Made by a program: the position numbers and the translations under genes
The notes under the pieces: model-generated
Told to the model about the DNA's origin: nothing
Seen by the model: the letters and a program-made list of their open reading frames with translations, nothing else
The model's database searches: none
Shown: piece by piece, positions 15,239-20,229 of the stretch
How positions within the stretch are numbered: the stretch's first letter is position 1
Layout of the letters: the number at the start of each line of letters is the position of its first letter
Assembly (NCBI RefSeq): GCF_000711985.1
Contig: NZ_JONU01000008.1
Coordinates: 248,001-312,000 of the forward strand
DNA: 64,000 nucleotides
Origin: Rheinheimera texasensis DSM 17496
Lineage (GTDB): Bacteria; Pseudomonadota; Gammaproteobacteria; Enterobacterales; Alteromonadaceae
Reading direction: 5' to 3'

Positions 15239-15763
15239 TCTGTGTTTCAGCAACTTGCGCTGCAAGGTGCGCCGGTGCATGCCTAGTAGTCGTGCGGTCT
15301 GACTGATATTGCCATCCTGTTGCGCCAGCACCCGCTGAATATGTTCCCATTCGATTTGATCTGTCGATAACAAAGCTTCGTTGTCGTCGCTGTTATGCTC
15401 AATGACCTGCGGTACAGCTTTATCGCCTTGCAGCGCTTGCAATAACACTGCGAAGTCCACCGGTTTTGTCAGATAATCGTCAGCACCCAGTTTGACCGCC
15501 TGCACCGCAGTGGCAATGCTGGCAAAGCCGGTCAGCACCAGAATACGGCAATCCGGGAAGTATTGACGTAGTGGTGCCACATAGTTCAACCCGGAAACGT
15601 CACCATATCGCAGATCCAGTAGCCAGGCGTCGGCCGGCTCCTCGATAAGCTCTGTCAGTGCTGGCGGAGTGGCAAAGATACGGACCTGATGACCTGCAGC
15701 CGTCAGACGGCGTTGTAAGGTCCGGAGCAATACCTCATCGTCATCTAACACCGTCAGTTTCAT
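15230..15763 (-). CDS. Response regulator, RegA/PrrA/ActR type
   Basis: A 177-residue two-domain response regulator. The receiver domain has the acidic pocket LDDDE (6-10), phospho-acceptor Asp50 (AWLLDLRYG), the Thr/Ser switch and Lys in KLGADDYLTKP. The C-terminal Fis-type helix-turn-helix is EHIQRVLAQQDGNISQTARL with GMHRRTLQRKL, which is highly characteristic of the RegA (PrrA, ActR, RoxR) family of global redox regulators. Its start overlaps the end of the sensor kinase gene by four bases (ATGA), so both are translated as a pair. In other bacteria this family controls respiration, carbon fixation and nitrogen metabolism; the local targets are not known. Confidence 0.92.
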   Translation of the reverse strand: MKLTVLDDDEVLLRTLQRRLTAAGHQVRIFATPPALTELIEEPADAWLLDLRYGDVSGLNYVAPLRQYFPDCRILVLTGFASIATAVQAVKLGADDYLTKPVDFAVLLQALQGDKAVPQVIEHNSDDNEALLSTDQIEWEHIQRVLAQQDGNISQTARLLGMHRRTLQRKLLKHRPG

Positions 15764-17100
15764 GGTCTGACTCCTGCCGGGAAATGGATTTGTGTGATGA
15801 GGCCGCCAGACGGGCCGGGTTTTCTTGTTACCATCCCCCCCAGCCGTTCGATACTGCTATTGGCGAGGAACTGTCCGAGGCCTAAACCATCAGGACTGGG
15901 CTGAGGCCGTTTTCCCAGCTCAACAAGCTGTGCTGCTGGTACACCTGGACCGAAATCCTCAATGTGCAACACAAATCCCTGATGTTGCTGACTGAGTCTG
16001 ACCAGCAGACGCGGCTGTTGTGCGGCCAGGCCGGCATCAGCGGCGTTATCAAGAATATTAAACAAAGCGGCGGACCAGGCCAGCGTGTCAGCAACCAGGC
16101 ATTGGCTGCCATCCAGCTGTTCGTCCAGGCTGAGACTAATTTCCGGTCGGCTGACTAACCAGAGTTGCAGCGCCTGTTGGGCCACCTGATGCAGCGGTGC
16201 CTGCTGCTGTGGCTGGCGTAATTGCTGCGCACTATGCCGTAGCTGTTGCACTATTTGCTGACAGCGCCGTACTTCTTGCTGCAGGTCTTGCAACAGTGCC
16301 GGGTCTGGCGGACCATCATTGAGCTCATCGGTTAACAACGTCAGATTTTGCAGCGGCGTGGCCAGTTCATGGGCGGCGTTGGCCGCATAAGTGGCGACTG
16401 TCAGCATCTGTTCCTGCTGTGACTGTTGTTGCTGCAATTGCATCAGTTCACGGGATTTCTGCCGAACTAACTGTGCTTGGGCGCTGACAAAAGCCGCGAT
16501 GAAAAACGCCGACAGTGTGAAGGCCCAGGCCATCTGCCACAGATGTGAACTGAAATGCGCCGGTAGCAGCTGATCCGGTGTGGCACCGTCAATAAAAACC
16601 TGATGACTGCGATGTGCCGCGTGCGGGTCAAAAATTAACTGCCCGGTTTGCGGGTCAACCGGATTGAGCGGTAACAACAGGGCCAGCAGCAGATAGCAAC
16701 TGACCGCCAGTGCGGCGGTCAGCAGGGCGATACGGCCTGGCAGCAACACTGCGCTGACAGCGACAGGCAATAAAAGCAGCGCGATCAAACCATTCCCAGC
16801 GCCACCTGCCAGCGCCAGCATTAAGGTTAGCAGGGTCAGGTCGTACAAAATGGCCAGCGCAAAGACGCGCTGTGGTTTCAGCGGGGCGCCTGGCAACCAG
16901 GGCAGCGACAAGTTGGTGCAGCCATATAAAGCCAACAACAACAGCATTAGCGGCCAGCTGCTGACCGGATATTGCAACCACCAGGCAGCCAAAGCCGCCA
17001 GATAGCTCGTCCCGACTAAGCCCCAGCGAAATTGCTGTAATTGTTTGATTTGTTGGCGTGGATCTGAGTCGGTGCTGAAAGCGGATCTGTTCGGCAGCAT
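15760..17100 (-). CDS. RegB/PrrB-type redox sensor histidine kinase
   Basis: A 446-residue membrane kinase (ATG at 17100; a TTG at 17112 lies inside a terminator T tract and is unlikely). Six hydrophobic helices cover about 25-210, followed by a Gln-rich coiled coil and the H-box AANAAHELATPLQ with His244, then a HATPase domain (NILDNAADAG, DFGPGVP, GLGLGQFL). Two features match RegB: Cys280 in RRCQQIV, the position of the redox-active cysteine after the H-box, and a GGAGNGL segment where RegB has the quinone-sensing GG-x-x-NPF heptad. Here the Pro-Phe of that heptad is replaced. It is translationally coupled to the response regulator. Confidence 0.88.
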   Translation of the reverse strand: MLPNRSAFSTDSDPRQQIKQLQQFRWGLVGTSYLAALAAWWLQYPVSSWPLMLLLLALYGCTNLSLPWLPGAPLKPQRVFALAILYDLTLLTLMLALAGGAGNGLIALLLLPVAVSAVLLPGRIALLTAALAVSCYLLLALLLPLNPVDPQTGQLIFDPHAAHRSHQVFIDGATPDQLLPAHFSSHLWQMAWAFTLSAFFIAAFVSAQAQLVRQKSRELMQLQQQQSQQEQMLTVATYAANAAHELATPLQNLTLLTDELNDGPPDPALLQDLQQEVRRCQQIVQQLRHSAQQLRQPQQQAPLHQVAQQALQLWLVSRPEISLSLDEQLDGSQCLVADTLAWSAALFNILDNAADAGLAAQQPRLLVRLSQQHQGFVLHIEDFGPGVPAAQLVELGKRPQPSPDGLGLGQFLANSSIERLGGMVTRKPGPSGGLITQIHFPAGVRP

Positions 17101-17110
17101 AGCGGATCTC

Positions 17111-17135
17111 AAAAAAAGCGGGCGCAGAGCGCCCG
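17111..17135 (-). terminator. Strong intrinsic terminator immediately upstream of the regB-like gene
   Basis: Read on the minus strand: CGGGCGC (17135-17129), loop TCT, GCGCCCG (17125-17119), C, then seven T residues (17117-17111). It is a perfect 7-bp GC stem with a T tract and ends only 10 bases before the kinase ATG at 17100. It can only act on minus-strand transcripts coming from 17136 upward, that is, on the kinase's own leader or on a small RNA. No established gene precedes it. Confidence 0.75.
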
Positions 17136-17246: not shown

Positions 17247-17572
17247 GTGGCATTTTGCCGCAGGGGCTGGTGTGACAAAATCTTGACGCTTAGATGGCGG
17301 CAAGCTGTGGCAAACCCGGCTATCTTCGGCGGAAATTTCTCGCCGCATCAGGTCGGATCTGCAGTGTAGGATCTGATTTATCATCTCGTTATTTGTAGGT
17401 TTGCTTGTATAAGTTGTTGTATTTAAACGATATTTATTAATATTTTGCAGCTGCTCGGCATTTGGCATTGCGTTTGCAATCTCTACATGCTCCCGCCGGA
17501 TCTGCATGATCGGGGTCGGGGAAATTAAAATCCAAAACAAAATAATCTTTACAATTAAGGGATTTACTCATT

Positions 17573-17779
17573 ATGAAATTCAATGCAAAATCGAAACTGT
17601 TCGCAGCACTGTTTCCAGTATCTAAACAAGAACAAACCGCAGAGCTGGTTGAGCTGAACACAGCTGAGCTGACTCAAGTCAGCGGCGGTATTTCACTGAG
17701 CATGGATGATGTGGCAGTTGGCACTTTTTCTGTTCACGATAATGGTGAGCCAGCGAAAGATTGGTGGGTTAAAAAATAA
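17573..17779 (+). CDS. Double-glycine leader peptide, bacteriocin/RiPP-like precursor
   Basis: A 68-residue peptide, not matched to any family I know by its core. The first 39 residues form a leader ending in LNTAELTQVSGG (28-39). That fits the double-glycine consensus at every key place: Leu -12, Glu -8, Leu -7, Val -4, Gly -2, Gly -1. Such leaders are cut by C39 peptidase domains of ABC exporters. The predicted core (40-68) has 29 residues, begins ISLSMDDVAVG and ends AKDWWVKK; it has no cysteine, is not strongly hydrophobic and carries two adjacent Trp. The basic start MKFNAKSKLFAALF is an extra amphipathic stretch. AAGGGA lies ten bases before the ATG. No peptidase/exporter or modification enzyme is in the window. 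Bacteriocin, signalling peptide or modified peptide are all possible. Confidence 0.75.
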   Translation: MKFNAKSKLFAALFPVSKQEQTAELVELNTAELTQVSGGISLSMDDVAVGTFSVHDNGEPAKDWWVKK

Positions 17780-17808
17780 CCAGATCTAGAGGGAGAATAA
17801 TAAACACA

Positions 17809-18417
17809 TTGAAGCCCTCGAATTATCTTAAAGACTGCACCGCTGGCGTATTGTGTTTTGGTACGCTAGCGGCAAGTACCTATTTTAGATCTGACGCAAC
17901 AGTTGTTGTTGCACTGTCATTTCTTTTGGTTTTTTTCGTTGCAATTTTTTCGTTACCAAAGCGACAAATTCTACCAATATTATTTTTAGTATTTTTAATA
18001 AAACTTCTAGCTCTGCCAATTGCTTACATACTGGGTGATTTAGACCCTTTTACGTATTACTTAGCATCTGCATTTGTTGATCTTCTAATGGCATTTTGCA
18101 TTGTGTTCTACCACAACGACCCTAAGTTACTTAGTTTATTCAAAGCCGATGGAAGTAGATTTGTCCCTCAGGTTTATTTGATGGCCCTAGTGCTTGCTAT
18201 TTCTTCCACAATATCATGCGTTCAATCAATAGAAGCTTTAATGTTCGTGATGGATGACACTTTCTACGACGACGGCCCTCCATTAGTATCAAGTCACCAA
18301 GCGGTCATTAAGCAGATAATTAAAATCCTTTTTGATCTTTCGGTTTGCTCTCTCCTCCTCGATCCCAACCGCTGGAAAATCTTGCAAAAAATCCAAAACA
18401 AATTTCTGGCGCCCTGA
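17809..18417 (+). CDS. Polytopic membrane protein of unknown function (possible immunity protein)
   Basis: A 202-residue protein that I do not recognise. Hydrophobic segments at about 10-28, 30-48, 54-76, 80-101, 118-142 and 167-184 suggest five or six membrane helices. The loop VMDDTFYDDGPPLVSSHQ (about 146-163) is acidic, and the C-terminus is basic (NRWKILQKIQNKF). Start is TTG at 17809 with GAGGGAGA at 17789-17796; no ATG is available near the N-terminus. It begins 29 bases after the GG-leader peptide stop in the same orientation, so co-transcription is likely. Its codons are visibly more AT-rich than those of the flanking genes, which suggests recent acquisition. A small multi-spanning protein next to a GG peptide suggests immunity or transport; this is inference from position only. 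Confidence 0.6.
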   Translation: MKPSNYLKDCTAGVLCFGTLAASTYFRSDATVVVALSFLLVFFVAIFSLPKRQILPILFLVFLIKLLALPIAYILGDLDPFTYYLASAFVDLLMAFCIVFYHNDPKLLSLFKADGSRFVPQVYLMALVLAISSTISCVQSIEALMFVMDDTFYDDGPPLVSSHQAVIKQIIKILFDLSVCSLLLDPNRWKILQKIQNKFLAP

Positions 18418-18459: not shown

Positions 18460-20229
18460 ATGTCACACCGTGCTCATTTATTCTCGTTACGGATTTTTCA
18501 TGCGCTGCGGGAGGCCGCCGCTGAAGGTTATGGTTTTCCGGCGCTCAGCAAAGACGTACTGGCCGGTATCAGCGTTGGCATTATTGCCATCCCGCTGGCG
18601 ATGGCGCTGGCCATTGCTTCAGGTGTACCGCCGCAATACGGTTTGTATACCGCCATTATCGCCGGCTTTTTGATTCCACTTTGCGGCGGCTCCCGCTACA
18701 GTGTGTCAGGCCCCACGGCCGCTTTTATCGTTATTTTATATCCGGTCGTGCAGAAATATGGTTTAAGTGGTTTGTTGCTGGCGACAGTGCTGTCCGGTGC
18801 CATTTTGGTCGCAATGGCGATGTTACGGCTGGGGCGTTTTATTCAATATATCCCCGAAGCCGTCACCCTGGGCTTTACTGCCGGTATTGCCGTAGTGATT
18901 GCCACATTACAGCTACGCGATTTATTTGGCCTCAGTGTTGCCAGCATGCCCGAACATTATCTGGAAAAGCTGCAGGTGCTGTTACAAGCGGCGGACACAG
19001 CACATTGGCCGGCGATGGTCGTAGCCGGCGTGACTCTGTGGCTGATGCTGGCCTGGCCTAAACTGGGTAGCCGTATCCCACCGCATTTACCGGCAGTGAT
19101 TGCGGCCACTTTGCTGGCCCTGGCACTGAATCATTTTGGTTATCCGGTGGAAACGATCGGCAGCCGTTTTCAGTACACAGCGGCTGATGGCAGTGTTGCC
19201 GCCGGTATTCCGGATATGCTACCCAGCCTGCAGTGGCCCTGGGATTTACCAGGCGCCGACGGCCAACCGCTGCAGTGGAGCTCTGAGCTGGTCAAAGATT
19301 TACTGACCGCCGCTTTTGCCATGGCGATGCTCGGCGCCATTGAATCGCTACTTTGCGCCATGGTGCTCGATGGCATGACAGGCCGGCGTCACAGTGCCAA
19401 CAGTGAATTGCTGGGGCAGGGCATCGGCAACATAGTGGCGCCGTTTTTTGGTGGCATTACCGCGACTGCTGCACTGGCCCGTTCTGCAGCGAACGTGCGG
19501 GCTGGCGCTGTGTCGCCCGTTGCTGCCATGGTGCATGCTGGCGTGGTGTTGCTGGCGCTTTTTGCCTTAGCGCCGGTGCTGAGTTACCTGCCGTTAGCCG
19601 GTATGGCGGCCTTATTGCTGGTAGTTGCCTGGAATATGAGTGAAGCGCCCAAAGCACTGCATCTGATCAATACCGCACCGCGCAGCGACGTGCTGGTGTT
19701 CGCGGTGTGTTTCTCTTTTACCGTGTTGTTTGACATGGTGATTGCCATCAGCTGCGGCATCATTATCGCGGCGCTGCTGTTTGTGCGCGAAGTGGCCGAG
19801 ATGACCAAAGTCGCCGATGTCACCGAAAACCCGAAGCTGGTTAACGAAAAACTGGCGCCCGGCAACAAGGTATTTCGCATCAGCGGGCCATTGTTTTTTG
19901 CTGCGGCGGACAGAGTATTTGCCGAGCTGGCGCTGTTATGTAAAGAGCAGCAACAAGTGGTGATCCTGATGGACGGCGTCACCTTACTGGATGCAGGCGG
20001 GCTTGCCGCTTTTGATAAATTCCTCACTGCGACCGCCAAAACTGAATGTCATGTGATGTTGGTTGACCTGCAATTTCAGGTGCTGAAAACCCTGGCGAAA
20101 GCCAAAGTGCGGCCTATTGACGGTTTATTGTCGTTTTATCCGACGCTGTCAGATGCGCTGAAGTTATTGCCCAAACGTCAGCCGGATGAGTTTGCCGGGT
20201 TGACGGCTTTGGATAATCCGGGTTTATAG
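18460..20229 (+). CDS. dauA: SulP-family anion transporter with STAS domain, DauA-like
   Basis: A 589-residue transporter closely resembling E. coli DauA (YchM), a C4-dicarboxylate (succinate, fumarate, aspartate) transporter of the SLC26/SulP family. The membrane domain starts at about residue 25 with KDVLAGISVGIIAIPLAMAL, and has GGSRYSVSGPTAAFIVILYP and GNIVAPFFGGITATAALARS. The C-terminal STAS domain (about 460-565) includes ISGPLFFAAADRVF and ILMDGVTLLDAGGLAAFDKF. Substrate is inferred from the DauA resemblance; sulphate or bicarbonate cannot be excluded. GAGG precedes the ATG. It follows the unknown membrane protein by about 40 bases but has normal composition, so the association may be accidental. 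Confidence 0.88.
   Translation: MSHRAHLFSLRIFHALREAAAEGYGFPALSKDVLAGISVGIIAIPLAMALAIASGVPPQYGLYTAIIAGFLIPLCGGSRYSVSGPTAAFIVILYPVVQKYGLSGLLLATVLSGAILVAMAMLRLGRFIQYIPEAVTLGFTAGIAVVIATLQLRDLFGLSVASMPEHYLEKLQVLLQAADTAHWPAMVVAGVTLWLMLAWPKLGSRIPPHLPAVIAATLLALALNHFGYPVETIGSRFQYTAADGSVAAGIPDMLPSLQWPWDLPGADGQPLQWSSELVKDLLTAAFAMAMLGAIESLLCAMVLDGMTGRRHSANSELLGQGIGNIVAPFFGGITATAALARSAANVRAGAVSPVAAMVHAGVVLLALFALAPVLSYLPLAGMAALLLVVAWNMSEAPKALHLINTAPRSDVLVFAVCFSFTVLFDMVIAISCGIIIAALLFVREVAEMTKVADVTENPKLVNEKLAPGNKVFRISGPLFFAAADRVFAELALLCKEQQQVVILMDGVTLLDAGGLAAFDKFLTATAKTECHVMLVDLQFQVLKTLAKAKVRPIDGLLSFYPTLSDALKLLPKRQPDEFAGLTALDNPGL

Follow-up and report, generated by a model that had tools for sequence, protein, structure and literature searches.

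Does a short open reading frame (ORF) of Rheinheimera texasensis DSM 17496 encode a secreted peptide and, if so, what might export and accompany it? The window, i.e. the whole stretch of 64,000 nucleotides that was analysed (G000:C6:248001-312000), belongs to a genome of 4.59 Mb. A first-pass annotation of this window had read the ORF as an orphan double-glycine (GG) leader peptide. The observation itself, a 68-residue peptide with a leader fitting the double-glycine motif, is confirmed, and the earlier interpretation as a whole is partly supported.

The peptide gene and its leader

The ORF (17573-17779, forward strand) starts with ATG and is translated into the leader MKFNAKSKLFAALFPVSKQEQTAELVELNTAELTQVSGG and the predicted core ISLSMDDVAVGTFSVHDNGEPAKDWWVKK (Table 1). 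Its leader has the hydrophobic residues at -4, -7 and -12 and the GG pair that define such leaders (GG, GA or GS before the cut), and AAGGGA precedes the ATG; thus both the leader match and the ribosome site were as claimed. The ORF translation likewise bore out the 29-residue core without Cys and with the C-terminus DWWVKK. This core has a predicted unmodified monoisotopic mass of 3230.57, is small, and is neither hydrophobic nor glycine-rich.

Table 1. Coordinates in the window of the pair, its upstream block and the flanking genes
Feature	Position	Strand	Description
Conserved block with likely Shine-Dalgarno site	17541..17572	+	TAAGGGATTTACTC at 17556-17569; alignment of 10 loci
Peptide leader	17573..17689	+	39 residues, C-terminal end LNTAELTQVSGG; aligned at L-15, L-12, E-8, L-7, V-4, G-2, G-1
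Predicted core and stop codon	17690..17779	+	29 residues, ISLSMDDVAVGTFSVHDNGEPAKDWWVKK
Partner gene	17809..18417	+	Membrane protein of ~202 aa; putative TTG start; six predicted long helices
SulP-type sulfate permease	18460..20229	+	Flanking, outside the system; Pfam PF00916 and STAS
Sensor histidine kinase	15760..17112	-	Flanking, outside the system; Pfam HisKA/HATPase/PilS-like

A strict scan for GG-leader ORFs with a start codon and a Shine-Dalgarno-like site gave this ORF as the sole match in the 64-kb window, and under the same scan 40 dinucleotide shuffles yielded three such ORFs, each in a different shuffle (mean 0.075). With TIGR01847, the NCBI bacteriocin leader model, the peptide was the sole match in its own genome at E<=10. 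Because its score of 13.9 bits (E 0.94) falls under the cut-off of 15.7 bits, the leader match by itself is weak. Another ELxxVSGG pattern match in the genome (C8) was a 39-codon frame without Met and was dropped. The peptide had been said to fit no known family and none was found here, since every model remained below its cut-off: DUF6160 (PF19657; 16.8 versus a gathering cut-off of 27 bits), TIGR03949, and the TIGR04497 model of ATP-grasp target peptides, which matched the leader at E 0.016 (15.2 versus 32 bits). No match of the peptide was obtained in plasmids or phages. We regard the product as a GG-leader peptide that is plausibly secreted and belongs to no family found here.

A membrane protein accompanies the peptide

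The peptide gene is not the lone gene that it had been taken for. A gene for a membrane protein begins 29 nt downstream of the ORF on the same strand, and such a partner follows in all ten loci found. The label "orphan" is therefore half right: the C39 exporter does lie outside the window, but the membrane-protein gene is adjacent. The two genes are best explained as a two-gene unit, which we read as an operon.

By AlphaFold2 (built from 3 sequences), the partner was modelled with six long helices plus a short helix at the C-terminus, with a mean pLDDT of 71.6 and a pTM of 0.66. It has no Pfam, NCBIfam, PHROG or PADLOC family and no PDB sequence match, and a Foldseek comparison of the model with the PDB gave no fold match at E<=0.001; hence it belongs to no family found here. 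Pfam recognised neither a family nor a signalling domain in the four of the ten membrane proteins examined, and no plasmid match of the protein was obtained. Asp91, Asp104, Pro120-Gln121 and Glu142 are invariant in all ten proteins, whose start codons were assigned by inference. The membrane protein is encoded a second time, in diverged form (E 1e-13), beside insertion-sequence-like ORFs at the end of contig G004:C20 (L028), where the contig end cuts off any peptide gene upstream.

When 395 genomes of the family were searched with the membrane-protein profile, 14 matches passed E<=0.01. Ten of the 22 genomes of the genus matched at E<=5e-19, and four weak matches outside the ten (E 0.001-0.005) were dropped as chance. 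The peptide search detected 3 of the 22, as seven of the ten upstream peptides are too diverged for it; three other genera gave weak peptide matches (E 0.03) that lie within frames of 536-712 aa and were also dismissed as chance. Directly upstream of the membrane gene, each of the ten loci has a short ORF with an unbroken frame. A sample of 394 genomes of the order gave two matches, both within the genus, and the pair was found outside the genus in neither the family (395) nor the order (394) sample. Among the genomes sampled, the pair is confined to one branch of Rheinheimera-like bacteria.

Its chromosomal site is also constant. The sulfate permease gene lies directly downstream of the pair in 9/10 loci, and the tenth contig (G013) ends before it; the other 12 genomes of the genus have before the permease a different ORF of ~190 aa, presumably 2'-5' RNA ligase-like. 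In a permease tree of 20 genomes (G013 and G017 absent), the eight pair-bearing genomes form one clade. The histidine kinase gene is present in the fetched stretch of six of the ten pair-bearing loci, the window included.

Selection and possible exchange of matched alleles

Purifying selection acts on the peptide among close species, and the dN/dS values mark it as a translated protein. The peptides of the window and G010 (L008) are 91% identical with dN 0.039 and dS 0.95 over 68 codons (dN/dS about 0.04), and their cores have dN 0.060 and dS 2.3. This low dN relative to dS, together with the unbroken frame in ten loci, indicates that the ORF is more than chance. Under the same rule about 1 in 13 shuffled windows yields a GG-leader ORF, but with this conservation and the fixed neighbours the probability of a chance ORF is practically nil, and we consider it refuted.

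Divergence is unevenly distributed over the locus. Compared with G017, the leader shows dN 0.034 and dS 0.485 and the core dN 0.559 and dS 1.43, the conserved-to-variable boundary falling at the GG. Between distant species the middle of the leader, the core and the membrane protein are strongly diverged, so that the peptide, well preserved in close species, can no longer be aligned across remote ones. Absent conservation or a broken frame in relatives had been named as evidence that would speak against the peptide; the frame is intact in relatives, but the core is conserved only among close ones. Three comparisons show a higher rate of change in the membrane gene than in its neighbours: between the window and G010 the membrane protein is 62% identical with saturated dS, the permease 98% (dS 0.29) and the histidine kinase 88%; between G008 and G016 the peptide is 100% identical (dS 0.22), the membrane protein 87% and the permease 99%; and between G004 and G007 the values are 45%, 49% and 96%, respectively.

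Along the DNA, the identity of the window to G010 is 0.45-0.72 across 17800-18339 and returns to at least 0.87 from 18340. The membrane-gene DNA is thus far more diverged than both flanks and its last ~20 codons recover, a pattern like that of allelic replacement.

A species tree was built from five genes for eight of the ten pair-bearing genomes (purL absent for G004 and G010, OmpW absent for G004). In this tree G004 and G007 join G008, G016 and G019, with G011 outside; in the membrane-protein tree it is G011 that joins G008, G016 and G019. By the AU test, the membrane protein rejects the species tree (p = 0.003) and the species genes reject the membrane-protein tree (p = 0.00015), a conflict that covers 8 of 10 genomes and calls for caution because of the long G011 branch (1.39). 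The grouping of the peptides follows that of the membrane proteins: G011, G008, G016 and G019 have in common VTLSAxxLALASG and a WPxWP. Peptide and membrane types thus appear to travel together against the species tree, and exchange of matched pairs would give such a pattern.

The same pattern would be expected of a signal and its receptor, the peptide being a pheromone or self-recognition factor that is sensed, in allele-matched pairs, by the membrane protein, alone or within a larger sensor. Core and membrane protein are both hypervariable, matched alleles are found in other hypervariable peptide/receptor systems, the cores are short (14-29 residues across the ten loci), and the pair is vertically present in one clade. 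On the other hand, the membrane protein lacks a recognised signalling domain, and the neighbouring histidine kinase gene is on the opposite strand and was found in only six of the loci. We consider this reading unlikely on balance.

A C39 exporter beside purL

The exporter had been supposed to be encoded elsewhere, and such a gene was indeed found. The genome has one C39 match (C6:463193), on the same contig but outside the window, ~197 kb from the peptide gene. The protein is a 701-aa ABC exporter encoded after a 425-aa HlyD-type fusion protein, between purL and an OmpW-like gene. Read by eye, its C39 domain has an apparent catalytic Cys in QSEAAECG, with His and Asp in the expected motifs. 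The exporter pair occupies the purL site in 6/10 pair-bearing genomes (G000, G004, G007, G010, G013 and G017); contig ends hide purL in G010 and OmpW in G013, and the G017 site is spread over two contigs. In G008, G011, G016 and G019, purL is directly followed by OmpW.

All six exporter-bearing genomes have peptides with GG and V or L at -4 (V/L-x-GG; G007 is readable as either), while ASGGG or ASGK is found in the four genomes that lack it, i.e. A/S at -4 or GK. The leader spacing (-4, -7, -12 and GG) also fits in six homologs and not in four, by a rule for a "good" leader chosen after the sequences were seen. For the association of exporter and motif, Fisher's test gives p = 0.0048 with relatedness ignored and the rule set after seeing the data; on the species tree it amounts to at least two events, perhaps only two or so, rather than ten.

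C39 proteins are widespread in the genus (19/22 genomes, 7/10 pair-bearing ones), and none was detected in G008, G011 and G016 at an E-value threshold of 0.001. G019 has a C39 exporter of a different group (G019:C56:32932-33309, L094), common to G009 and G018 of the other genus branch. At C39 loci of that branch (L095, L099, L101, L103 and L106; 5 of 21 scanned), short classical GG-leader ORFs of the MKELT..QV..VSGG type with Gly/Ala-rich cores were seen, which are probably ordinary bacteriocin-like peptides.

The purL exporter was not made for the peptide alone, because in G004 it sits in a class I lanthipeptide cluster with the order purL, LanA-like, LanC, LanB, fusion protein, exporter (Pfam PF04738, PF14028, PF05147). 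This cluster (L089:8849-13594 and L140:1349-6094) includes a Cys-rich LanA-like precursor with a leader ending in PQIAGG. No trace of LanA, LanB or LanC was found at the other five exporter loci, the window's own genome included, or at the four empty sites. The lanthipeptide genes were either lost in five genomes or gained in one. If they were lost, the exporter would have been kept for other cargo, for which the peptide is the sole candidate found. It should be pointed out that the GG-ORF scan of the exporter loci missed the LanA-like ORF of G004; because such leaders escape the GG-ORF and TIGR01847 scans, the window's genome may still encode further cargo for the purL exporter.

LanB and LanC beside a homologous exporter in G004, together with the weak leader match to the ATP-grasp model, would favour a triceptide, lanthipeptide or graspetide modified by an enzyme from another part of the genome. 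Yet the 13 neighbouring proteins (6451-28691) include no radical SAM, ATP-grasp or other modification enzyme, and the window's own exporter locus is free of lanthipeptide genes. Lanthionine is excluded since Cys is absent from all ten peptides, and class I lanthipeptide membership was dropped on the same ground and for want of LanB and LanC at that exporter. The suggestion of a triceptide, drawn from the W-x-K of the core, is likewise unsupported, as this motif is common only to the three closest homologs. From the 13 neighbours and the exporter locus, a modified product is rejected as highly improbable.

Proposed trans-export with self-protection

We favour the following reading, to which we give a probability of about 0.4. 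The first gene would encode a GG-leader precursor. In the window's lineage, the C39 ABC exporter and its HlyD-type protein beside purL would cleave it after Gly39 and ship the 29-residue peptide in trans. The product of the second gene would sit in the inner membrane and shield the producer against its own peptide, or tune the response to it, as in a bacteriocin/immunity-like pair. The conserved far N-terminus of the leader could help to direct export, by analogy with the rtg peptides.

Several lines of evidence point in this direction. PCAT peptidases bind the hydrophobic positions of the leader and the GG, according to the available text of PMC7018657, and the leader residues at -15, -12, -7 and -4 with the GG fit these positions. 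The six exporter-bearing genomes are also the six with a good motif. Known microcin immunity proteins, as described in the accessible parts of PMC9746304 and PMC10233263, have 51-216 aa and tend to be adjacently encoded proteins of the inner membrane. Self-protection is favoured because the partner, with 202 aa and adjacent in all ten loci, matches them in size and place, and because peptide and membrane types co-travel against the species tree.

Other observations weaken the trans-export reading in its parts. Matched immunity is doubtful since the membrane proteins of the window and G010 are 62% identical and the peptides 91%. An exclusive link to the exporter is doubtful given the lanthipeptide cluster of G004 and the three genomes that retain the peptide without C39 proteins. 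Bacteriocin loci are less usually fixed at one chromosomal site within a clade than mobile, which counts against this reading as well, as does the unlikeness of the small core to class II microcins. Killing would be only one option, because known GG peptides such as those of the EbfG/PteB system also act in biofilms.

The conserved peptide of G008 and G016, which have no detected C39 protein, implies another way of working there or a newly stranded peptide. It is from this side that a reading without secretion gains weight, in which the peptide serves the membrane protein as a small subunit or regulator, located inside the cell or on the membrane surface, and the GG match is partly fortuitous. 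The leader model score is under its cut-off, the GG is degenerate in 4/10, and the best conserved part across the ten loci is not the GG but the N-terminus M-[KQ]-x-(x)-N-A-[QK]-S with the start-codon DNA. However, the six homologs that fit the leader spacing are exactly those with the exporter, and the boundary between conserved and variable parts in the G017 comparison lies at the GG. Non-secretion therefore appears a rather unlikely alternative.

The membrane protein might also be a processing partner, maturing or translocating the peptide with the GG-like motif as its own recognition site instead of that of C39. AgrB, which processes AgrD, is the model here: AgrD/AgrB combines a short precursor containing a variable part with a multi-helix membrane protein of ~200 aa, the two co-diverging, which resembles the pair. 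Retention of the pair in all ten loci, three of these in genomes without a detected C39 protein, would be accounted for in this way, as would the invariant polar residues of the membrane protein. But no protease family or fold was recognised in it, nor an AgrB-type one (Pfam; PDB fold, model from three sequences). The pair further differs from AgrD/AgrB in its GG-type leader and in the C39 exporter of 6/10 genomes, all with a good motif, and G011 has lost the GG motif and retained the membrane protein. Taken together, a processing role is distinctly improbable.

Finally, and with little confidence, the pair might be a clade-specific hypervariable unit for self-recognition or kin competition, with matched alleles swapped between species at one chromosomal site. 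For transport the peptide would rely on a borrowed exporter, either a remnant of a lanthipeptide cluster or one still serving such a cluster; once that exporter is gone, the leader would decay and the pair survive by another route.

Comparison with known systems

GG peptides with C39 exporters are known; the paired, allele-switching and exporter-unlinked form is new as far as the literature was searched. The open-licence literature, in the parts available, gave no Rheinheimera double-glycine peptide or microcin.

Class II microcins of the microcin V type (precursor, adjacent immunity protein, C39 exporter, fusion protein and TolC) are the nearest likeness. The pair shares the GG leader, C39 and HlyD proteins in the genome and, in place of the small inner-membrane immunity protein, an adjacent 202-aa protein with six predicted helices. 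However, the microcins have leaders of 15-18 aa versus 39 here and cores of ~5-10 kDa versus 3.2 kDa (3.23) here, by the accessible part of PMC10233263. Their exporter genes lie near the precursor, not ~197 kb away, and unlike them the pair is bound to one clade and one site. The core also differs from theirs in being small and neither hydrophobic nor glycine-rich, and a strict class II microcin was rejected on sizes and exporter distance.

In the pneumococcal rtg system, the export signal of the GG peptides handled by RtgAB is described as including a motif upstream of -18, and several peptide genes are followed by immunity-like genes, the peptide function being given as unknown (available text of PMC7018657). 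This resembles the pair by description, not by sequence; the rtg locus is Gram-positive, regulated and holds its own exporter. EbfG1-4 of Synechococcus elongatus are small proteins with a GG motif and without known homologues; the C39 protein PteB exports them, and their role is in biofilms rather than in killing. They differ in being encoded beside the exporter gene and in their larger mature size of 6-7 kDa, and the portion of PMC4997328 at hand describes no paired membrane protein. The G004 lanthipeptide cluster shares with the window's genome the purL site and a homologous exporter pair, but its Cys-rich precursor is, by eye, unrelated to the Cys-free peptides.

If the preferred trans-export reading is true, standard mining has missed a Gram-negative GG-peptide family owing to the distant exporter, the long leader and the short core. 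The ten loci, with and without exporter and with alleles conflicting with the species tree, would then offer a natural experiment in two respects: the choice of unlinked cargo by C39 exporters, and the fate of a peptide once its exporter is lost.

Conserved DNA around the start codon

At 17541-17595, a stretch spanning the start codon, the DNA hardly varies among the ten diverged loci. The 14-nt block over the ribosome site, TWAGGGATTTACNC, occurs once per genome in the 10 pair-bearing genomes and in 0/12 others. A consensus fold of 7 of the 10 sequences gave no conserved RNA structure, and the start region has no Rfam match. AGGGAT over the ribosome site resembles the CsrA binding core, which could mean translational control.
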